From Methanosaeta sp. PtaB.Bin018 (GTDB lineage Archaea; Halobacteriota; Methanosarcinia; Methanotrichales; Methanotrichaceae), in contig MVQH01000101.1 in the NCBI GenBank assembly GCA_002067755.1, positions 78,277-142,276 of the forward strand: a stretch of DNA of 64,000 bases. Direction: 5' to 3'. Below are positions 19,101-33,126 of this stretch, piece by piece (within the stretch, counting starts at the first letter, position 1; each line of letters starts with the position of its first letter). The position numbers and the translations under genes are program-made. The notes below the pieces were generated by a model. That model had not been told where the DNA came from, made no database searches, and was given only the letters and a program-made list of their open reading frames with translations.

Positions 19101-20511
19101 TCACAAAGAGCAATGGCCAGTTGAGATAGGATGCAATTGGGGCTGCCTGCAAAGCTGAGCTGTAGTTCTCGCCAACTATCACTGTTCCAGGCGAGCTCTT
19201 CCAGTAGTGGCTGAGCTTCTCCGCCATATCATAACTGTTGTTGGCTTCCAGCTTTGTGTCGCTCTTCCAGGATACATTGCCAATTGCAAGCGACCTTCCG
19301 CCCAGTTGCTGAATCAGCCAGCTAGCCGCAGATGACGGCGGCTCCAGCTCCGACCACAGGGGCGTATAAACTACATCGTATTCAAAGGCCACTCCTTTGA
19401 TTTTAGCCCTGGTGAGGTCCTCGATGTACCTTACGGCACCATCCACATTTTGAGTGGAGAGGACGTAGCCCACATAATCATCGCTCAGCCTGACATAGGT
19501 CGGCTTATTGCTCATGCCTGCTGCAAGTTGTGCATCCTGGGCAGAGAGAGGTGCGATAATGGCGAAGTCGACCTTCTTGGCCATTTCTGCGTAATTGTAT
19601 CCCTGATTGCGATCAAAGGGATTGTCTACAGCAACGCCCAGCTTCACAGGACCCAAATCGGATGTTATGTTTTTGGATTCGTCCACGATCTGCAAGATCT
19701 GTTCCTGCTTCCACCTGTTCCACCTGTCAAGGTTGTAGCTGTTGGCTTTGACCTTGGTGATGTCAATGCCTGTGTCCTTGTAGAACTTCTCTTTGCAGAC
19801 GTCGCAAAAGCAGTAATTCTCATCCTGGAATCCGAATTTGTAAAGCACCACTCCATCGACTTTGTAGTCGTCAATCAAAGCCTCGATCTTGTTGTAGAGA
19901 TGATCCCGCACCTCTGGATTGGCAGGACAAAAGTAACTCGCATTGCCTCCAGTCTCGGGATTGGCAACCTGCAACCAGCTCGGATCTATTCGTGACTCAT
20001 CTGGAGCTGCGCCTTTAAGGCCGGCCTCTGCAAGGAGAGCAGCCTTTGCCTCTGGCACAGCCTCAATCTCATTCGTCTGGGGCTCTGAGATCAAAGGAAG
20101 CTCCAGAGATGCCGTAACATATGCACTCATCCCGTTCTTATGAGCTGCCTCCACCAGTGCCTTGACCTGATCTCCTTCACCGTGAATCGTGATGGCTGTG
20201 ACGTTGGCTGCTTTGAAGGTGCCCAGTATGGCTGAGGCTCCATATTTATCCAGATCGCTCTCTTCGACCCAGCCATTTCTATCGCCGGCGTTTACGTTCT
20301 TTGGCAGGATCAACAGCGTTTTCGTGATGGTCTTGTTGTCATCAGACCAAATGGCAAGTGGCGTGGCTGCAACTGATGCATGCCAGTCGTAAGCGCCTAC
20401 CAGGATCAGATCCTCTACATCACCTTTCACACCTCGTTCCAGATCAGCGGCTGCAAGAAGCATTGCACTGGACAAAACCGCCATGATCAATACTGCTCTG
20501 AGCAGTTTCAA
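16165..20511 (-). CDS. Giant secreted protein with C25 (gingipain-like) caspase-fold peptidase domain
   Basis: 1448 residues with an N-terminal signal peptide. Domains by appearance: residues about 60-370, a glycoside-hydrolase-like TIM-barrel region with 'VDGVVLYKFGF' and a four-Cys pair 'CFCDVCKEKF'; about 430-510, a cell-wall-binding-2-type module ('VIVGENYSSALQAAPIASYL', 'EVVIVGPVSE'); about 540-850, beta-rich NEW3/CARDB-like repeats; about 850-1150, a C25-type peptidase with the His in 'HFDHHG' (His989/990) and Cys1028 in 'SSACVTVN'; C-terminus, two modules beginning 'AGWNAISVYL' and 'SGWNMIGLPV'. It has many N-glycosylation sequons. It overlaps the upstream gene by 4 nt. Probable cell-surface or sheath processing protease; substrate unknown. 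Confidence 0.75.
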   Translation of the reverse strand: MKLLRAVLIMAVLSSAMLLAAADLERGVKGDVEDLILVGAYDWHASVAATPLAIWSDDNKTITKTLLILPKNVNAGDRNGWVEESDLDKYGASAILGTFKAANVTAITIHGEGDQVKALVEAAHKNGMSAYVTASLELPLISEPQTNEIEAVPEAKAALLAEAGLKGAAPDESRIDPSWLQVANPETGGNASYFCPANPEVRDHLYNKIEALIDDYKVDGVVLYKFGFQDENYCFCDVCKEKFYKDTGIDITKVKANSYNLDRWNRWKQEQILQIVDESKNITSDLGPVKLGVAVDNPFDRNQGYNYAEMAKKVDFAIIAPLSAQDAQLAAGMSNKPTYVRLSDDYVGYVLSTQNVDGAVRYIEDLTRAKIKGVAFEYDVVYTPLWSELEPPSSAASWLIQQLGGRSLAIGNVSWKSDTKLEANNSYDMAEKLSHYWKSSPGTVIVGENYSSALQAAPIASYLNWPLLFVNDELPEETAAALRRLSAKEVVIVGPVSEKVRQNLTEMNITILNGNSELLIKEMKDRGQSPDMVVMTNSHDLSLLPPSPDPVVERAYVEDLQVRTEASPGQIPAEELGEIVRLNVTLTNTGSKDLTSVRLMDIFPMGRLIKWPRASKGEVNVTDPYTGLPTDANSAFLNGSLLRWNLVRLKPEESATLNLEVEFLYPMDSGWKQRLDTGATAAYEGFSYNHTLENTDDWPVVNLTYPTWIYSGRANISWNLDKDASYTALNLYSPDGREGGVKITDIAPDKLYNLRVQLLTPGVWKFNIEAGDGYTHRTENYSIDVRSNTDPVNITAFSHTKVPRLSMVASQAASARRALLLDVAKDPQQIDPLNEEASLNQKVDDLELSPKYLMVVGDPGSMPFISTGLVQKLTSVMEYEIYRDYQLPEEFDNYSNVAVGRIVGLSVYDASQLLARTLAYDRLSGSWKNNGLVISSPPLSYPQAPIAASIRDYLQEAGLAVKDLRYEEATYQQAVSQMNNGQNIVHFDHHGNEESWSLSEWSSMDPTLTGAHVKELVLSPQTTTSSACVTVNLKGYYLNVSGTRMYIPKNIEDSIALAFVRAGAVNYIGESALSWIFVSDDFFKQFYQSLVFENATVGQAQLDADNLFKLKFRGAENLKDISKYDEELPNWEETVQQMLNQTAYMNVIIGDPSFRPNLPKSPALPYTTKVTAANGTAKNKTTLMASVTPKNESATDWIYWIETDSSSGELNLNAPPAIIGEVSLPKDADKVVVKEMGLAVWHDEMIVGDQKKVMWPIVRPRLGETRSFQIEYSLVPGEVQVIYVTAGWNAISVYLNPMDPSASKYLKNKPYRGIFSSAASGWAFSTKDAGMVNVTKFKPGEGYLIDSAGNFTMMISGKPVDLPYRLDLHSGWNMIGLPVNRTVDMNNITVNAEHKRYTYPEAVQKGLVSAFIWKYEDEGWTHLGENETLEPGKAYLIEATRDAKLEFR

Positions 20512-22088
20512 GCTCTCACCTCCTCCATCAAGACGCCAGCATCTTGCAGCGCTCTGGCATTCGCCTCTAAAATGTCTCCCACTATCAAAGCCTTGGAGAG
20601 AGTAACATTGCGTTTGGTCATGACTTTGATTGCGGATCTAGCAGCTTCTGTCACATTACCCTCGCATATTATCAAAGGCAGGCTACCGTTCTTGGCCACC
20701 TGGTAAGCCCTGAATATATCCACTGGTTTGGGACTCGATAATACGACCTCGGAGATTCCATCCTGCCACATCTCAGCTGTGAGTTGCCAGCATTCTTCAA
20801 ACAGGCCATCTCCCTGAATGCGCTTGATCTCGACGCCATCAAGGACTTTTTCGGCATCCATAGAGACTATGGTGTGGTTGCCAAAGATCACAACTCTGGC
20901 AAAGTCCTGCAGCCATTCACGATCCTTATCGCTGAGCTTGCCTGGCGGAACTGTGATGATGGCCACCGATCTATTAGCTGGCGCGCACAAGGACGCCACT
21001 GTGCTGTACTGGAGATCTTCCCCCGTCAGGACCGCCACACCCTCGGGCTGCACCACTTTGACGGAGGTCATCTCCTGGGGCATGGGAATGCCATTGGAAT
21101 CGATGAGCCTGAAAATAATCGGATAATCCCCAGTTTGAGATGCCAGCATAGTGAAGTTGGCAACGCCAGGCTTTTCCGGATTGACCTCCACTACCTGGGC
21201 CTGAGGAATGACCATTAGCTCCGACGGCGTTGCAATTCCGACCAGCACCTTCTCCTTGACATCGAGTATGACGCTAAATGAGCCTTTGTAGGTCTTATTG
21301 GCTACGATCCTATCTGGAACCTCGATATCGACGCGGTAGCCCCTGACGGCCATGCCAAACTCAACGCTGGCATTGACTGTGTCGTTTCGGGAGCGGTTGC
21401 CCAAAGATGTCGCAGTTATCTGCAGCTCACCCCTCTTTCCCGGTTCAGTTGTTTGTATCTGTAACTTCATAAAATGGGTTGTGCCGGAGTCCAAAGATAC
21501 ATCGTATGGCAAGGAGACCTCCTCTTCACCGTCGAGCAGTGTCACGCTCCAGCCATCAGGCAACGGGGAGGAGTCGACATGTGCTACATCTCTGAACAAC
21601 CCTAGGTTTTTTACAGCCAGCTCGAACTGTGCGATGTCTTCCGCTTTGGCGGCGAGCGACGCGGACTTGGCATCGTCGATGGTCATGCTGAGGCCGTAGC
21701 TCTCCTGACCCACGATGTTCAGATTGAACTCAATTCTCACTGGCATGGTGGGAGGCGTGTTGTCCAGCAGATACATGAATCCAGTATAGGACCCTGGCTT
21801 TGTCTCCTGTGGGACTGCGAAGTAGACCTTTATCTCAGCATCATCCTGAGGCTTTAGCGGTTTTTGTTCAGGCATGCTCAAGATTATAAAGTCCTTAGCA
21901 CTTCCGCTCACTTGAGTGCCTGTGATTTTGAAAATGGGCGCATCGCCCACATTGGTCAACTTTAGCGTCCTCTCCTCCACCTCCCCTGGGTGGAGCACAA
22001 CATCGAACTTCTCCTTATCTGGCGCCAGCTGGGCAGCGCCCAAGCTGATCAGCAGAATCAGAATGACTATCGGATATATTTGCCTCAT
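20508..22088 (-). CDS. Secreted NEW3/CARDB-type protein with CWB2-like C-terminus
   Basis: 526 residues with a signal peptide ('MRQIYPIVILILLISLGAA'). Residues about 25-340 form three or four beta-sandwich repeats of the NEW3/CARDB sort ('LKLTNVGDAPIFKI', 'ELAVKNLGLFRDVAHV'), usually binding or spacer modules. The C-terminal part, about 350-526, alternates 'AIITVPPG', 'VVIFGNH', 'EVVLSSPKPVDIFRAYQVA', 'ALIVGDI', reminiscent of the cell-wall-binding-2 module in the neighbouring giant protein. The 4-nt overlap with that gene means co-translation, so the two products likely act together at the cell surface. Exact function unknown. Confidence 0.7.
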   Translation of the reverse strand: MRQIYPIVILILLISLGAAQLAPDKEKFDVVLHPGEVEERTLKLTNVGDAPIFKITGTQVSGSAKDFIILSMPEQKPLKPQDDAEIKVYFAVPQETKPGSYTGFMYLLDNTPPTMPVRIEFNLNIVGQESYGLSMTIDDAKSASLAAKAEDIAQFELAVKNLGLFRDVAHVDSSPLPDGWSVTLLDGEEEVSLPYDVSLDSGTTHFMKLQIQTTEPGKRGELQITATSLGNRSRNDTVNASVEFGMAVRGYRVDIEVPDRIVANKTYKGSFSVILDVKEKVLVGIATPSELMVIPQAQVVEVNPEKPGVANFTMLASQTGDYPIIFRLIDSNGIPMPQEMTSVKVVQPEGVAVLTGEDLQYSTVASLCAPANRSVAIITVPPGKLSDKDREWLQDFARVVIFGNHTIVSMDAEKVLDGVEIKRIQGDGLFEECWQLTAEMWQDGISEVVLSSPKPVDIFRAYQVAKNGSLPLIICEGNVTEAARSAIKVMTKRNVTLSKALIVGDILEANARALQDAGVLMEEVRA

Positions 22089-25905: not shown

Positions 25906-27567
25906 TTAAGATTGAAGGATCTCTCTTATTCTCCTCCTGCAGTCCTGGTCATTGAAAATCGCCCTTAGCTCCTCCTTCACCATCTTCCTCAGGCTGGCTC
26001 TATCTGAAGCAGCCATCTGCTGCTCTTCCTGACAATTTCCAAGAGCATTCATTCCATTCCCAAAGATCCTAAGAGGCCTCGTGAACACTGGCGCCTCGCC
26101 CTCCCTGAGCCGTTCCAGGCAGTCGTACAGCTCATCTAGCAGTCCATCTTTTCCATAGAAGTACTTCCTGAGCATCTCCTTCGTTATCTCCTTGTAGCTC
26201 TGGAAGCCCAAGATGTTCATCTCGTTATTCTCGATATAGTTTATCGACTCTGTGATTATATCGTGAAGCCTCCACTCCAAAGTGCCTGGACGCTTATGCT
26301 CTCCGATAGTGCCTCCATAGGGGTTGCGAAGCAGGATGAGCATATCCTCCGCCTTTCCACCACCCAATTTGCGGTAGACCATTATCTTGTTCTCCGACAG
26401 GCCCGTCCTCTCCTGTACGGCCTCCTTTATATCCTTGGTGCGGAAAAAACCGCGGGTGAAAACCAGGACTCGATCGGCCTTTGTAGGATCGCATGGGAAC
26501 AACCGTCCGTCTTTGCCCGCAGGCAAAAGGCTCCCCTTGCCAAGGGCTCCCTCCACCAGCTCCAGCTCATCTCCCTCATGTGCTGCTTGAATGCAGTAGC
26601 ACGGCACAAGAATGGGCGGAAGCAGACCTTCACTGCCAGCTCCCTCACGCCTCCTGGAGATCCCATTCGATCCATTGTTCTCCCCATTCACTTCCCAGAT
26701 GACCCTCCTGATGCCTTGTGAGTCGTCCTGGAGCAGGTCCCCTGGATAATTCCTGAGATCGAGGAGCGGCTTGAGAGAGTTGTAGATGCAGACATCCATG
26801 CCGGTGTAATTGCCCCCAAACCTCTGCACCAGGGTCTGATTGTCTACCAGGATCAGAGCATCTATTCCTTCGCCCGAGGCCTTTGTGAGCAGGTCATACA
26901 TTGCAATGACAGCGCCCAGATCTCTCTGGCCTTCTGTGGCCTTTCTCTTATCTGTTCCCTTCTCAGTCAGAATTCCCAGTACGAAGATTGGAAATATGGG
27001 CTCCTCAGATCGGACATAGCTCGTGATCGGGTTTATAAACCCAGTGCCAGTTCCACCACCTAAAGAGGCTATGAAGAGAATGCTATCGCACAGCTTGGAT
27101 CTTGCGGAGCTTGTGGAAATAATCGTATGAGGCCTTATGCCTACCTGCCACATATACCCGGAAAGGGGATTATCGTTGCTCTTGAACTCCTCCAGGCAGA
27201 CCTCCTTCAGCTTGGGGTCGAATTCGAATACCTCGAAGATCCCTTTCAGATACTCTGCCCTGCGGTCGAAGCCTGGCGCTTTGAGGTCGAGCCCGTAGGT
27301 ATCACTCAAATATCTGCGGGTGTCAGAGCCTTCGCTCACATTTCCATGACAGATCAAAAAGGGGGGGTACTGTCCCTGTACCAGACTTCCGTAGTAGCTC
27401 TGGCGTTGTGTGTCTTGGGTGGCAGATTCCAGCCACAGTCCTTTGACTCCCCCGTAGGCCAGATGCCTTCCAAATTGAAGGCCCATTAGATTGATATCCT
27501 GGCTCTGTAAAAACTGCCTCAGTATATTTCCACCTGCACCACCGATTCCAACGATACAAGGTCTCAT
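25906..27567 (-). CDS. Divergent tubulin/FtsZ-superfamily GTPase
   Basis: 553 residues from ATG 27567; the ORF is open to 27891 but that extension lies over the upstream gene. The N-terminus has 'IVGIGGAGGNIL' (residues 5-16), the first nucleotide loop of FtsZ/CetZ proteins. The tubulin signature GGGTGTG is at 170-176 ('FIASLGGGTGTGF'), followed by 'VLGILTEKGTDKRKATEGQRD' and 'LILVDNQTL' with the purine-contacting Asn. The spacing between the first loop and the signature (about 155 residues) is longer than in FtsZ, and the C-terminal half is not recognisably FtsZ. Likely a GTP-dependent polymer at the membrane. It is the last gene of a four-gene operon and overlaps the membrane gene by 4 nt. 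Confidence 0.85.
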   Translation of the reverse strand: MRPCIVGIGGAGGNILRQFLQSQDINLMGLQFGRHLAYGGVKGLWLESATQDTQRQSYYGSLVQGQYPPFLICHGNVSEGSDTRRYLSDTYGLDLKAPGFDRRAEYLKGIFEVFEFDPKLKEVCLEEFKSNDNPLSGYMWQVGIRPHTIISTSSARSKLCDSILFIASLGGGTGTGFINPITSYVRSEEPIFPIFVLGILTEKGTDKRKATEGQRDLGAVIAMYDLLTKASGEGIDALILVDNQTLVQRFGGNYTGMDVCIYNSLKPLLDLRNYPGDLLQDDSQGIRRVIWEVNGENNGSNGISRRREGAGSEGLLPPILVPCYCIQAAHEGDELELVEGALGKGSLLPAGKDGRLFPCDPTKADRVLVFTRGFFRTKDIKEAVQERTGLSENKIMVYRKLGGGKAEDMLILLRNPYGGTIGEHKRPGTLEWRLHDIITESINYIENNEMNILGFQSYKEITKEMLRKYFYGKDGLLDELYDCLERLREGEAPVFTRPLRIFGNGMNALGNCQEEQQMAASDRASLRKMVKEELRAIFNDQDCRRRIREILQS

Positions 27568-28166
27568 TGCCGCCAAGCCTCCAGAAAACCAATTGATATT
27601 GGCAAGATCATGAGGACCGCTGCCGCCGCTAGCATCATGTATCCCAGATTCCAGAAGAACGGATTGCTGGTTGGGTAGATGATTCCAAGATGCATGGAAC
27701 AGATGATAGACCCGAGAAGCAGGACGGGAGTTGCAGCTGCAATTGCTTTGAGACGTTTGTGTATCAGATAATAACTGTAGACCTTTGGAACAAATATGGA
27801 GATCAGAGCTCCTGGGATCAGTGCTGCTACGCCAAAGATGGCAAACCCCCAATCCAATGAGGCCACGCGTGGGATCTTGAAGTAGTTCCACTCCGGAAAG
27901 ATACTGGGAGTCAGCAAATAAAGAAAAGCCAGTGCCACGAACAATAGGCTCCAGGAGAGGATCATCATGATGTTGAAATTCGACCCCTGAGAGATGTGCA
28001 TAGACCTCATGAGATCTCCGAGGTTGAAATCGCTCTCTTCAGTGCGCAATACCATGGACTCAATCATTTTCAGATACATCACGTGTAGGGTTCCACCTAA
28101 AAGCAAAATAGCTACCAGGCATATGAGCATGTAAGCCTCAAATATATCATGCCCGAGCAGGTTCAT
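27564..28166 (-). CDS. Five-helix membrane protein of the tubulin-like operon
   Basis: 200 residues, no family recognised. Hydrophobic segments lie at about 10-31, 66-90, 104-127, 141-164 and 172-195. A soluble loop of about 30 residues between the first two helices contains 'EESDFNLGDLMRSMHISQGS', and a basic 'HKRLKA' precedes helix four. It overlaps the anchored secreted protein gene upstream and the tubulin-like gene downstream by 4 nt each. By position it is a candidate membrane link between the outside proteins and the cytoplasmic polymer. Confidence 0.72.
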   Translation of the reverse strand: MNLLGHDIFEAYMLICLVAILLLGGTLHVMYLKMIESMVLRTEESDFNLGDLMRSMHISQGSNFNIMMILSWSLLFVALAFLYLLTPSIFPEWNYFKIPRVASLDWGFAIFGVAALIPGALISIFVPKVYSYYLIHKRLKAIAAATPVLLLGSIICSMHLGIIYPTSNPFFWNLGYMMLAAAAVLMILPISIGFLEAWRQ

Positions 28167-29548
28167 CTGTAAAACCTCCTCTCCAGAAGAAGGCCGAGCA
28201 CAAATGCCAGCAGCAAAATGGCAGCCACATTGCCCAAGCTCAAAGCGGATATGGTGTCGTATCTGACCAGTTTAGCACTAAGCGGAGCTTGTGCATCCTG
28301 CTCTATATGATCCCTCTGGTTCTGGTCATATTCTGAATACTCGAATTTATAGCGGAAGCTCTGGTTGGCATCGAGAACATCAAAGGGCTTGACGAGGAAG
28401 TAAACTGCCTTTGGATTGCCCGATAAAACCACGTTCTGGCTCGCAATTGCCCTCCATGGGTGGGCCTTTGTGTCCAAATAGAGAGATACTTGCACCTGTG
28501 CATCCTCAGGCTCTTGGTTCTTCATCTCCAGGCTGAAGTTGTAACTCTGCCACCAATATTGGTTTTGATCTTCAGGTGTAACCTTTGGCCTCCCCACCCA
28601 TATGGCAGTGCTCTTCTTTAACTGAGGCCCCTTTTGAATGCCGGTTACGGAGACGTTTATGCCGTCTCCAAAGGAATAGTAATATGTGAAATTCTTGCCT
28701 GCATCATCCTTATTAAAAAACCCGTACTGGCTGGCCATGAATTGTACTCTCTGGCCGGAGGTGACCATTTGGGTTGCATTCGATCGTTCGCTTCCCTTCT
28801 CATCCAGTATATGCAAGGTGACATTAACAGCATCGCCGTTTGCATCAGTGACGTTGGCAACATATGTGATGGGATCATTATACCTCGTGGGGTTCGGAGC
28901 CTCGATGGACAGATCAGATAGCACAGGAGGGCTATTTGTTACATTAAGCGTGAGATTCTTAGAGGTCCAGGTGTATTGTCCGTCGGTCGCCTTCAACCTA
29001 AGAACTACAGTGCCGACCCTTTTTAGATCCCGGAATGATGTCAGCTCAGGAAAGGCTCTGTATGTGAAGTTTAATCCATCATTCGATTCCTGGTATTCAT
29101 TTATCTGAATGATCTGTGGTATGGAATTCACCTGTGAGAAGGCATTCTCGCCTGGCAAGAGGGCCTCCAGGCGCAGGTAAATCGCTCTGCGTATCTCTAT
29201 TGGATTGGAGTTTACAACATATGCTCGTACTACAAAATCCTGAGTTCTATTGAGCGTCGTGTTGCCCTTGAAATCCAGGCCCAGCCCTAACTTATCGCTG
29301 TATTCCTTAGTGGTAAACGGCTCAATGTAGAGCAGTTTCTTCAACTGCTCGAACTTCTGAGGCTTTTGCTCCTTTCCTTCCTGCAAAGCCTTTAAGATCC
29401 TGTCCAAATCGGTCTGCCTGCTCCCACCACCCCCGCCACCTCCCTGCGATGGCGTAGGTGGGGGAATGTCCAGCATCTGGCATGCGACAGGCTGGTTCAA
29501 TAGCAACAGAAGCATCAGGAGTGCAGCAAACCGAAGTGCTTGGCCCAT
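28163..29548 (-). CDS. Secreted protein with C-terminal membrane anchor, tubulin-like operon
   Basis: 461 residues: signal peptide (1-23), a proline/glycine stretch with seven consecutive glycines near 37-43, a short helical segment ('LDRILKALQEGKEQ'), then beta-rich extracellular domains (about 75-430) with cadherin/PKD-like phrases 'LRLKATDGQYTW' and 'YVANVTDANGDAVNVTLHIL'. A single hydrophobic helix (about 435-455) and a short basic tail 'ERRFYR' end the protein. Many N-X-S/T sites fit an exported archaeal glycoprotein. Its start is directly after the stop of the upstream gene; its stop overlaps the next gene by 4 nt. Confidence 0.75.
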   Translation of the reverse strand: MGQALRFAALLMLLLLLNQPVACQMLDIPPPTPSQGGGGGGGSRQTDLDRILKALQEGKEQKPQKFEQLKKLLYIEPFTTKEYSDKLGLGLDFKGNTTLNRTQDFVVRAYVVNSNPIEIRRAIYLRLEALLPGENAFSQVNSIPQIIQINEYQESNDGLNFTYRAFPELTSFRDLKRVGTVVLRLKATDGQYTWTSKNLTLNVTNSPPVLSDLSIEAPNPTRYNDPITYVANVTDANGDAVNVTLHILDEKGSERSNATQMVTSGQRVQFMASQYGFFNKDDAGKNFTYYYSFGDGINVSVTGIQKGPQLKKSTAIWVGRPKVTPEDQNQYWWQSYNFSLEMKNQEPEDAQVQVSLYLDTKAHPWRAIASQNVVLSGNPKAVYFLVKPFDVLDANQSFRYKFEYSEYDQNQRDHIEQDAQAPLSAKLVRYDTISALSLGNVAAILLLAFVLGLLLERRFYR

Positions 29549-31174
29549 TTAATTGCTCACCACATCGAATTTTATGGTCTTGTGCCAGGGTTGGTTCTTC
29601 CATATCAGCTCTTGCCATTCTGAGCAATTAGATCCATACGCTTGGATCTGATGAGATCTATTCCAGATCAATCCATCATCCGTGTAGATCAGCTCGATTT
29701 TCAGGCCAGGTCTCGATGATTTTACCTTCACCTTATAATCAAAACGATCAGTATTGCCGATGCGGCTGTACAGCAGATCCCGAAAAGCCACATCGATCTT
29801 CGGACCGACGTATTTTCCCAGAACAGTGTCTCCAAGCAAGAACCTATAGCTTGCATTGCCCAACTCATCGCTCACAGGATCTAAGCTTACATTTTTCCAA
29901 ACGAGTGTGTCATTGTCTCCACTGTATGTCGCAGTTCCTCGATTTGTCCAGACCCAGCCGTTTGGCTGTGCTGTCTGCAGTTCGATATCACAACTTGGCA
30001 GCCTTGTTTCTACCTGGACAGAATAGTTGTAACAGGTGAAGACTGAGCCATTTGCAGGGCTCACCGTCCAGTTTTTCAAGTTCACCGCAACCAGTGCTGG
30101 GCCTGAAGAATACTTACCGGTTTTTTCATAAGTGGTGGAGAAAGGATTATCAGAGCCTTGATAGTAAAAGCTGAAGTAATAGTTGGACATGCCGCTTGAT
30201 TCTGCAGACGATGAGGGATTGACCTCTTTCCAGACCATAGTCTCCCACTGACCGACGTTACCGTAGCTTTGCCTTCCTGCAGAAATATATCGTTTGTTGC
30301 TCACATCCCAGACATTCAGCCCCACATCGATGGCCTTCGCTGCTTTAACATCTATGCTGTAGTTGAAGGGCGTATCTGACAAGCCCCTATCCGGAGATAC
30401 ACTGCTATTTTTATACTCGACATCCACAGGCCATGAGGGCCCATCGAATATCATCTGTTTTCTGCCACAAATCCTGTAAGCAGCAGAGTCAAAATCGAAG
30501 CCCAGGCTTACGTTGGACCACTTGAGGGTCTGCCGGATTCCAGGCGTCGTATATGCTCGTGTGCCCACCAAAGTCCAGGGACCACTGCGTGACGGACCAA
30601 CCTCCAAAGTTATGTTATCCTGGACCGTGGATAGAACTGAAACCTCGTACTGATAACTATCCTCATTTGATCCCTTTCTTGGAGTAACCTTCTGGTCCCA
30701 AAACTCCTCGAAGACTTTTACAAGAGACGGCTTGCCGGTATGATCCTCGGCTTGTATAGGTTCCTCGAAGGGATTGAGAGAAGTGACTGCAACCCTGTAC
30801 CACGCTTTATCCCATGTTTCCGTCCGGTTTTGGTCGCTCAGCCATTTTCCAAATTCACCGCTCAAGAATTCAGAGCTCTGAAAATTCACAGGAAATTGAA
30901 CGGTGACCGATTCGCCGTTTGCGTTTATATCCTTTTTGATGGTTTTTGAGACAGATTGATCAGGTCCCGGCCCGACAGTAAGCTCAATGGTGTACAGCAT
31001 CGATTTACTTGCACCAGAGATCTGAACATCGTATACTATTGTCTTGCCCACATCAAAAGGCTCAATCAAAGTGCCTGCTTGATTTGTGAATACAGATATC
31101 TCATAAGAATTGACAGGATTGACAAGCCACAGGAGTAGTATAGAAAAAATGATCATAGATCGTAGGCAGCCCAT
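29549..31174 (-). CDS. Secreted multi-domain repeat protein, first gene of the tubulin-like operon
   Basis: 541 residues with a signal peptide ('IIFSILLLWLVNPVNS') and no C-terminal anchor. After an N-terminal domain, residues about 163-541 hold four related beta-sandwich units, each closing with a Trp-rich motif: 'LKWSNVSL' (217), 'MVWKEV' (313), 'LVWKNVSL' (424) and 'LIWKNQPW' (523). These occur about 95-110 residues apart. No enzymatic motif is visible, which suggests a structural or adhesive surface role. It starts the operon; a TATA-like CTTATAAG lies about 60 nt upstream. Confidence 0.72.
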   Translation of the reverse strand: MGCLRSMIIFSILLLWLVNPVNSYEISVFTNQAGTLIEPFDVGKTIVYDVQISGASKSMLYTIELTVGPGPDQSVSKTIKKDINANGESVTVQFPVNFQSSEFLSGEFGKWLSDQNRTETWDKAWYRVAVTSLNPFEEPIQAEDHTGKPSLVKVFEEFWDQKVTPRKGSNEDSYQYEVSVLSTVQDNITLEVGPSRSGPWTLVGTRAYTTPGIRQTLKWSNVSLGFDFDSAAYRICGRKQMIFDGPSWPVDVEYKNSSVSPDRGLSDTPFNYSIDVKAAKAIDVGLNVWDVSNKRYISAGRQSYGNVGQWETMVWKEVNPSSSAESSGMSNYYFSFYYQGSDNPFSTTYEKTGKYSSGPALVAVNLKNWTVSPANGSVFTCYNYSVQVETRLPSCDIELQTAQPNGWVWTNRGTATYSGDNDTLVWKNVSLDPVSDELGNASYRFLLGDTVLGKYVGPKIDVAFRDLLYSRIGNTDRFDYKVKVKSSRPGLKIELIYTDDGLIWNRSHQIQAYGSNCSEWQELIWKNQPWHKTIKFDVVSN

Positions 31175-31308: not shown

Positions 31309-32454
31309 TCAAACTCCCAGCACCCTGCTCGCGGCCTCAACGCCCGCGCCACGTGATCGCAATTGCCCTTCCTTTGCCAACACCAGCTCAAGGGTCTGGA
31401 TCGTCCTCAAAATATCGCCTGATGAGCAGGCGCCCATGGTGCCGATGCGAAAGATCTTGCCCTTGAGCTGCTCCTGGCCGCCGGACACAACCACGCCCTG
31501 CTTCTTCATGCCGCCACGCAGCTTGTCATCTGTGACCCCAGCAGGCATCTTCATGGCAGTGACCGTATTGGAGTAATGAGAATGCTCGTTCACCTGGGGG
31601 AAGAGCTCGATGTCCAGCGCTCTGGCCGCAGACCGAACTGCTTCAGCCTGACGGGCAGTTCTGGCCCTGCGAGAGGCGAAGCCCTCCTCTGACGCCATAT
31701 GCAGCGCTTCTTGTAGAGCGAAGAACAGAGGAACCGCTGGAGTGTAAGGCGTCTGCACAGGACTCTTCCTCGCGCTCTTCAGATGAGCCTTCAGATCTGC
31801 ATAATAGCTGGCGCTCTTTGCCTCAAACCTCTCTTCTGCCTTTGGCGATACTGAGACCACTGCCAGGCCAGGAGGCACCGCCAGCGCCTTCTGAGAGCCG
31901 GTGATGGCGATATCGATGTTCCAATCATCTGTCAGGAATTCATTCCCGCCTATTGAAGATATGCCGTCCACTATGAAGATCGCGTCATGCTTTTGGGCCA
32001 GCTTGCCAACCTCTTTTGCAGGGTTGGTGAGGCCGACGGAGGTCTCATTATGGACCATTGCCACAGCTTTAGCTCCCTGTTCAAGTGCAGCTTCAACCTT
32101 TTCCAGATCGAAGGGAGTGCCCCACTCGAACTTCACTGGAAGGACCTTGCCGTACCTCTCTCCGATCTCAGTGAACCTCTCGCCGAATTTTCCGTTGGAT
32201 ACGGTCACGATGGTGTCCTTCCGACCGATGATGCTGCCCACGGCTGCGTCCATACCCACCGTGCCGCTGCCGGTCATTATAACTACATCGTTCTGCGTCT
32301 CGAAAAACTGCTTGAGAAGTCCGATGCAATCGCTGTAGATGGCTCCGAACTCGCTGCTTCTGTGGCTGATCATAGGCTTGGACATGGAGCGCAAAACGCG
32401 CGGTGCGACCTTGACAGGCCCTGGAATCATGAGCAACGTATCCTCTATATCCAT
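31309..32454 (-). CDS. Class V aminotransferase (alanine-glyoxylate/serine-pyruvate type)
   Basis: PLP-dependent fold-type I enzyme, 381 residues. Family markers are 'LMIPGPVKVAPRVL', 'IMTGSGTVGMDAA' (PLP phosphate-binding), 'MVHNETSVGLTNP', 'IVDGISSIGGNEF' (PLP-binding Asp), and the Schiff-base lysine in 'ITGSQKALAVPPG'. Methanogen homologues are annotated as broad-specificity aminotransferases with alanine, serine or glyoxylate as partners; the substrate here is not fixed. A TATA-like TTTTATATAG near 32493-32502 on the minus strand lies inside the end of rnhB. Confidence 0.9.
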   Translation of the reverse strand: MDIEDTLLMIPGPVKVAPRVLRSMSKPMISHRSSEFGAIYSDCIGLLKQFFETQNDVVIMTGSGTVGMDAAVGSIIGRKDTIVTVSNGKFGERFTEIGERYGKVLPVKFEWGTPFDLEKVEAALEQGAKAVAMVHNETSVGLTNPAKEVGKLAQKHDAIFIVDGISSIGGNEFLTDDWNIDIAITGSQKALAVPPGLAVVSVSPKAEERFEAKSASYYADLKAHLKSARKSPVQTPYTPAVPLFFALQEALHMASEEGFASRRARTARQAEAVRSAARALDIELFPQVNEHSHYSNTVTAMKMPAGVTDDKLRGGMKKQGVVVSGGQEQLKGKIFRIGTMGACSSGDILRTIQTLELVLAKEGQLRSRGAGVEAASRVLGV

Positions 32455-32493: not shown

Positions 32494-33126
32494 CTATATA
32501 AAACTAGCTTTTATACGTTGTGCTGTGGTCCAGCTATGCCTGGCACATGGTGGAAGCTCCCGATTTTCTCTAACCCAGCAGCTCAAAAAGTCGAGTGTAT
32601 CCTTATCGGTGGGGTAACCGCTTCCGATCTTGCATCCCAGCTCCTCTTCCAGTTCCCGCAAAGATGCATCTCGCCTCACCTTGGCAAGGATGGATGCGGC
32701 TGAGACTACCAGGTGGCGCTCGTCTGCCTTATGCTCGGCGATCAGCTCCATGCCGGTTTTGCTGGCGTCTCTCACCCGCCCTGCGAACCTGGCAGCATCC
32801 ACATCTGCGGCGTCGAGAACAGCCCTGTCGGCATGCAGCCTCTGCACCACCTGAGAGAAGCTCCTTACCATGATCTCGTTCATGGTCATCGCCAACCGAA
32901 GCTCATCGATGACACGCGGCGAAACTTCCAGGATGTACTGGTCGGCAGAGATGCTCGAGATCTTTCTGGCCAGCACCTCGCGGGCCTTTGGGCGGAGACG
33001 CTTGGAGTCCTTTACGCCCATAGCAGCGAGGTCAAAGAGCCTATCCTCCTCGATGACCAGACCTGCGATGAACATCGATCCCACAACTGGGCCTTTTCCT
33101 GCCTCATCCACGCCCAGCAGAAGCAT
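32494..33126 (-). CDS. rnhB: Ribonuclease HII
   Basis: Removes RNA from RNA-DNA hybrids and single ribonucleotides from DNA. Catalytic acidic residues are visible: 'GVDEAGKGPVVGS' (Asp and Glu of the DEAGxG motif) near the N-terminus, 'VLDAADVD' (third Asp) mid-protein and 'SAASILAKVRRD' (fourth Asp), followed by 'GSGYPTDKDT'. From ATG 33126 it is 210 residues, typical for archaeal RNase HII; ATG 33147 would add seven residues that do not resemble the family. Confidence 0.95.
   Translation of the reverse strand: MLLLGVDEAGKGPVVGSMFIAGLVIEEDRLFDLAAMGVKDSKRLRPKAREVLARKISSISADQYILEVSPRVIDELRLAMTMNEIMVRSFSQVVQRLHADRAVLDAADVDAARFAGRVRDASKTGMELIAEHKADERHLVVSAASILAKVRRDASLRELEEELGCKIGSGYPTDKDTLDFLSCWVRENRELPPCARHSWTTAQRIKASFI

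Follow-up and report, generated by a model that had tools for sequence, protein, structure and literature searches.

The window analysed here, a stretch of 64,000 nucleotides (nt) from Methanosaeta sp. PtaB.Bin018, belongs to a member of the Methanotrichaceae, a family of acetate-eating, methane-making archaea, and carries on its minus strand (positions 25906-31174) four genes read in the order SEC4, SEC1, TM5 and TUB, which encode two predicted exported proteins, a membrane protein and a tubulin-family protein. The four same-strand genes with 0- or 4-nt junctions that an earlier note, made from the sequence alone, had described were found as such, with 0 nt between SEC4 and SEC1 and overlaps of 4 nt for both SEC1/TM5 and TM5/TUB. 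A longer open reading frame (ORF) exists for TUB (661 amino acids (aa) from a GTG); relatives keep the start at the 4-nt overlap instead. The next genes downstream lie on the opposite strand and therefore the unit in this genome consists of four genes; the two genes upstream of it, on the same strand, were used as controls. The features of the region are listed below.

29549..31174, minus strand: SEC4, 541 aa, predicted exported, with an N-terminal signal-like stretch and tandem repeats of immunoglobulin (Ig)-like type, without a C-terminal membrane helix
28163..29548, minus strand: SEC1, 461 aa, predicted exported, with a weakly Ig/cadherin/PKD-like ectodomain, one C-terminal membrane helix and the tail ERRFYR
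28178..28240, minus strand: C-terminal membrane helix of SEC1 and start of its tail, about residues 437-457 (from sequence and hydropathy)
27564..28166, minus strand: TM5, 200 aa, five-helix membrane protein with a long N-terminal helix
25906..27567, minus strand: TUB, 553 aa, tubulin-family protein
27526..27549, minus strand: T1 loop of TUB, GIGGAGGN, residues 7-14 (from sequence)
27040..27060, minus strand: T4 loop of TUB, GGGTGTG, residues 170-176 (from sequence)
26713..26724, minus strand: T7 positions of TUB, DSQG, residues 282-285, with the first acidic position kept and Gly at the second
31309..32454, minus strand: class-V aminotransferase gene, upstream flank outside the module, control
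32494..33123, minus strand: RNase HII gene, flanking and outside the module, control

The structural model of TUB revealed a two-domain tubulin fold whose nearest match by structure comparison is CetZ, and this fold, together with the glycine-rich loops T1 and T4 of the guanosine triphosphate (GTP) site, places the protein in the tubulin/FtsZ superfamily. The GGAGGN and GGGTGTG motifs from which a GTPase had been recognised in the earlier note correspond to these two loops, and a simple hydropathy scan gave zero membrane stretches. In an alignment of 59 TUB sequences from the proteins and loci at hand, Gly7, Ile8, Gly9, Gly10 and Gly12 of T1 and all seven residues of T4 are invariant (59/59), with Asp (35) or Asn (24) at the T6/H7 position. 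In FtsZ polymers, each GTP site is completed by the T7 loop of the next subunit. Where FtsZ and CetZ have their second T7 acid, the TUB family has Ala (54), Gly (3) or Ser (2), and an acidic residue in 0/59 sequences; the acidic pair (D-x-x-D or D-x-x-E) that serves hydrolysis in CetZ is absent from the family. The T7 alignment is consistent with where the helices of the model begin and end (H8 starts at residue 283), and the C-terminal part shows extra helices, a disordered linker and a terminal helix (residues 520-552). As judged from sequence, this suggests that TUB would bind GTP, with slow or absent hydrolysis. The degenerate T7 and the C-terminal part would also suit a non-polymerising TUB that acts as a GTP-loaded membrane switch, like a small regulatory GTPase, controlling SEC4 export or assembly via TM5 and SEC1. 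This is held to be unlikely: the whole two-domain tubulin fold is kept, and simple switches need hydrolysis, which the T7 change should slow.

In the phylogenetic tree the TUB sequences form a clade (support 100/98) separate from the FtsZ clade (100/100), outside both CetZ groups (labelled here by resemblance to solved CetZ chains) and apart from FtsZl1 as well. The earlier note had taken TUB for a divergent GTPase and had named beforehand a position inside ordinary FtsZ or CetZ clades as the result that would speak against it; the tree places TUB outside both. A sister-group relation of TUB and CetZ is not rejected by the approximately unbiased test (p 0.368), and a possible one of TUB and FtsZl1 in the tree is not firm (support 75/92). 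FtsZ was thinned to 10 rows in the final tree (every third of the FtsZ rows L163-L192 being kept), five rows that were redundant or nearly duplicates were absent from the first tree, and no ORF of L205-L207 passed the motif filter. The profile comparison that the earlier note had asked for points the same way, with TUB scoring 19.2 bits on TIGR00065 (FtsZ; cut-off 295.2) and 12.1 bits on PF13809 (cut-off 27), which we take to stand for FtsZl1. With FtsZ, TUB has in common the tubulin fold and the GTP loops, and differs from it in forming its own clade and in not keeping the D-x-x-D of T7. CetZ proteins (Haloferax CetZ1/CetZ2, Methanosaeta thermophila CetZ) are of ~370 aa, whereas the separate TUB clade ranges from about 510 to 600 aa and is further set apart by an insert before T4, the extra C-terminal helices, a T7 without the second acidic residue and the fixed partners SEC4-SEC1-TM5. 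Also placed outside the main CetZ groups, on a very long branch, was a tubulin-family protein from a haloarchaeon (G400; 387 aa; L128 and L201 are this same protein), which has the motifs GLGGGTGCG and DNQ.

CetZ is nevertheless the nearest fold and profile to TUB, and the Methanosarcinia-type cetZ loci have, in 16/16 cases (best hits, not a random sample), a surface-protein gene directly upstream:

L002, 237-2604; L119-L127, L129-L133 and L204: surface-protein gene upstream of cetZ, same strand as cetZ

These proteins carry a C-terminal helix and a tail ending in [QE]Y[KR][FY], with DUF11/CARDB/BatD-like matches in the two tested, and each is possibly a membrane anchor of CetZ. TUB could by analogy be a further CetZ-like factor for shape or motility whose sharing of an operon with surface genes is accidental, a very improbable explanation given that the operon is conserved too closely for such an accident, that TUB falls outside the CetZ clades and that a CetZ-like gene (L002) and a separate FtsZ gene (L001, 444.1 bits on TIGR00065) are already present in the host.

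The three partners of TUB show the features expected from their earlier description, albeit as predictions. The hydropathy scan gave one stretch in SEC4 (N-terminal) and two in SEC1 (N- and C-terminal), and the model of TM5 contains five membrane helices (predicted local distance difference test score 92.3, predicted template modelling score 0.87), most likely with the N-terminus outside and the C-terminus inside as read from the basic loops. SEC4 had been called a secreted four-repeat protein in the earlier note; the four repeats are a softer matter, the alignment clearly showing three VxPxxG units, with related parts at either end of the protein. No Pfam family matched SEC4 at E<=1, and its length varies from 537 to 1460 aa among loci. 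SEC1 gave weak Ig, cadherin and PKD matches (Big_9 in 6/37 relatives) and no match among solved structures; behind the helix, the basic tail is short in many SEC1 proteins (ERRFYR or similar) and longer in others. Comparison of the SEC1 profile with that of SEC4 gave a match (E 1.6e-5, probability 78.8).

Conservation of the arrangement was read in 48 loci (the window, 46 from 43 genomes and the one of genome G230; G078, with TUB split over two contigs, stands outside this count). SEC4, SEC1 and TM5 all lie upstream of TUB on the same strand in 40/48 loci, and in 7 of the 8 incomplete loci the contig stops less than 2 kb from TUB; a lack of such conservation was the other result that the earlier note had named as speaking against it. 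The 4-nt overlap recurs in 41/44 TM5/TUB pairs and 28/43 SEC1/TM5 pairs. Therefore, the arrangement is more than chance. Two loci show irregular TUB genes: in G060 (L039/L035) TUB has directly downstream of it another TUB-like frame, a partial one of 184 aa (30 percent identity), and in G054 (L041) TUB is split by an in-frame TAG, with sequencing error, decay and readthrough not told apart.

Pairwise distances were compared in the 17 loci that have the whole module together with the two flanking genes; the correlations are 0.92-0.94 among TUB, TM5 and SEC1, 0.75-0.80 between these and SEC4, and 0.66-0.80 between TUB, TM5 and SEC1 and the two flanks. Partial correlations that take out the effect of the flanks are 0.88 (TUB-TM5), 0.83 (TUB-SEC1), 0.82 (TM5-SEC1), 0.60 (SEC1-SEC4) and 0.52 (TUB-SEC4), and 0/2000 permutations reached any of these five. 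Median identities to the window in 20 loci (few cells missing) are 78 percent for the aminotransferase and 67 percent for RNase HII, and 40, 36, 40 and 41.5 percent for TUB, TM5, SEC1 and SEC4, respectively. Because the partial correlations are high and the identities far below those of the flanks, the core (TUB, TM5 and SEC1) is seen to move and change together, and quickly, with SEC4 varying more freely.

Strong TUB matches (profile search, E 1e-50 or better) are found in 45/50 Methanotrichaceae genomes, and TUB in 32 of the 33 that are >=90 percent complete and <=5 percent contaminated. Those without a strong match are G029 (complete), G062 (whose contig ends within a SEC4-like gene placed after the aminotransferase gene), G086 (69 percent complete, with no module beside the aminotransferase gene), and G089 and G093 (58 and 56 percent complete). 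TM5 was found in 43/50 genomes; in G046 and G048, which bear TUB and gave no TM5 match, TUB lies at a contig end. Three genomes (G039, G044 and G066) carry two modules each. Across 392 genomes of the phylum the TUB profile gave any match in 152 and a strong one in 15, the best weak match having an E of 9e-11 and the weak-match frames being, with few exceptions, CetZ- or FtsZ-like in size. SEC1 occurs in the same 15 genomes, 14 Methanotrichaceae and G230 (family f18). The latter is the sole module-bearing genome outside the family, with a complete module on a 14.8-kb contig (contig 75, L149); its TUB is nested among Methanothrix TUBs inside the window's subclade and exactly matches a protein cluster that counts 33 members on 71 contigs, and the module is there by transfer or on a misbinned contig, the two being indistinguishable. 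The protein database holds at least 330 TUB relatives at E 0.001; 7 of the 120 matches listed have an organism name (6 Methanothrix/Methanosaeta/Methanotrichaceae and 1 uncultured archaeon). For TM5, at least 22 relatives were found there, of which 5 have an organism name, all Methanothrix.

The reading preferred here, with a probability of roughly 45 percent, is that the four genes are a conserved unit building one envelope-spanning complex in which TUB serves as a lasting GTP-bound inner scaffold that places a surface structure. In this scenario TUB, with its predicted GTP binding, would line the inner face of the membrane, SEC1 and SEC4 standing outside; TM5 would recruit TUB, perhaps via the C-terminal helix of the latter, and pair with SEC1 in the membrane, and the SEC1 ectodomain, resembling the SEC4 repeats, may hold Ig-like SEC4 on the exterior. 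With T7 incomplete, GTP hydrolysis in TUB filaments would be slow or absent and the filaments hence stable, so that TUB would form not a constricting ring but a durable scaffold by which a surface fibre or patch is anchored and positioned, possibly for adhesion or for cell-to-cell or sheath-to-cell contact. The predicted topologies and the co-divergence fit the transmembrane device coupling the exterior to a cytoplasmic polymer that the earlier note had put forward; the device itself we infer.

Several observations weigh against this envelope-spanning scaffold. The T7 reading is taken from an alignment of very divergent sequences, and the first T7 position is acidic in 30/59 TUB sequences, that of the window among them. 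The fold search gave no structural match of weight that would name a role for TM5. The eighth incomplete locus (L046, G070) has TUB, TM5 and a short SEC1 and no SEC4, and the co-divergence can also stem from block inheritance or swapping of the four genes. Finally, profile searches gave no TUB-family, TM5 or SEC1 match on the chromosome of G029 (no genome-wide SEC4 search was made there), a genome whose second contig matches the Methanothrix soehngenii GP6 plasmid with full identity for 9000 bases and in which the aminotransferase gene is followed by unrelated genes where the module would be. A related view, rather doubtful, is that of an integrin-type link in archaea, in which TUB, its catalytic T7 loop given up, would form a lasting GTP lattice under the membrane and set out, via TM5 and SEC1, an array of Ig-like fibres, the cytoskeleton thus templating the surface.

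The absence from GP6 also bears on the general role in filament, septum or sheath architecture that the earlier note had suggested, which finds no support. Sheath (SH) proteins of Methanothrix and Methanospirillum, some of them with Ig-like domains, come from the same host family; PMC11576556 reports sheath proteins, as an order-level statement, in all Methanotrichales and in other groups, whereas GP6 lacks TUB, TM5 and SEC1, and a core sheath or filament role of the module is therefore weakened. The same paper calls the sheath-assembly helpers and the plug unknown, which leaves room for the module in an accessory role. That the module serves sheath, septum or end plug, by linking the cell and its division to the proteinaceous sheath or plug, is judged quite unlikely, even though the module is confined, G230 aside, to a family of sheathed filamentous archaea and disulphides are reported in PMC11576556 to matter for the sheath. 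A DsbD-like gene follows the module on the same strand in 12/46 loci (L048, L065-L072 (all eight), L078, L079 and L083; mostly one Methanothrix group), with a thioredoxin-like gene in 11 of them; this pair is however not beside the window's module, and the other groups with sheath proteins gave no strong TUB match in the search of 392 genomes except in G230.

The loss in GP6, the variable SEC4, the doubled modules and a divergence that is high with respect to the flanking genes could likewise be explained by a surface module that evolves fast and is maintained by conflict (virus defence or kin recognition), with TUB as its inner part. This is also very improbable, since PADLOC gave no useful-score match for any of the four proteins (best E 0.02) and a presence in 45/50 genomes is unlike that of a patchy defence system.

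Returning to the scaffold reading, no description of this gene set was found in the literature searched (open-licence papers), in agreement with the earlier note, and the nearest described kind of system is that of the FtsZl1/vWA operons of Makarova and Koonin 2010 (PMC2875224). There, too, a divergent tubulin-family protein whose T6-T7 part is poorly conserved shares operons with genes for membrane and exported proteins. TUB differs in being about half as long as the archaeal FtsZl1 frames of this analysis, and its unit is without P-loop GTPase or kinase and, in the window, without a vWA gene beside it. TUB is rated as a new family within a known kind of tubulin-family membrane systems. Secreted vWA proteins do lie near some modules:

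L045, 5790-8141; L055, 5538-6995; L149, 457-4272; and others: vWA-domain surface proteins near modules

Among the matches listed, 5/45 genomes have a vWA protein of secreted type (PF13519) no further than 3 kb from TUB (0.68 expected, P 0.0005), and at least 11/45 have a PF13519 match within 7 kb (1.37 expected, P 6e-8), the distances having been chosen after seeing the loci and related genomes counted separately, and therefore the association is a lead; it recalls the vWA/FtsZl1 operons. In the second modules of G044 and G039 the vWA genes are directly behind TUB (48 and 87 nt). Elsewhere in the window (20508-22088, minus strand) a predicted exported protein of 526 aa without a Pfam match is encoded, with a 4-nt overlap with the downstream gene of 1448 aa.

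If the scaffold reading is true, it would add a third use of tubulin-family proteins in archaea, beside division (FtsZ) and shape (CetZ), namely a fixed inner scaffold tied to the surface, and the tie, made by dedicated membrane and exported partners, would be a new cytoskeleton-to-exterior link. The family-wide loss of the second T7 acid provides a natural test of whether tubulin-family filaments work without hydrolysis.

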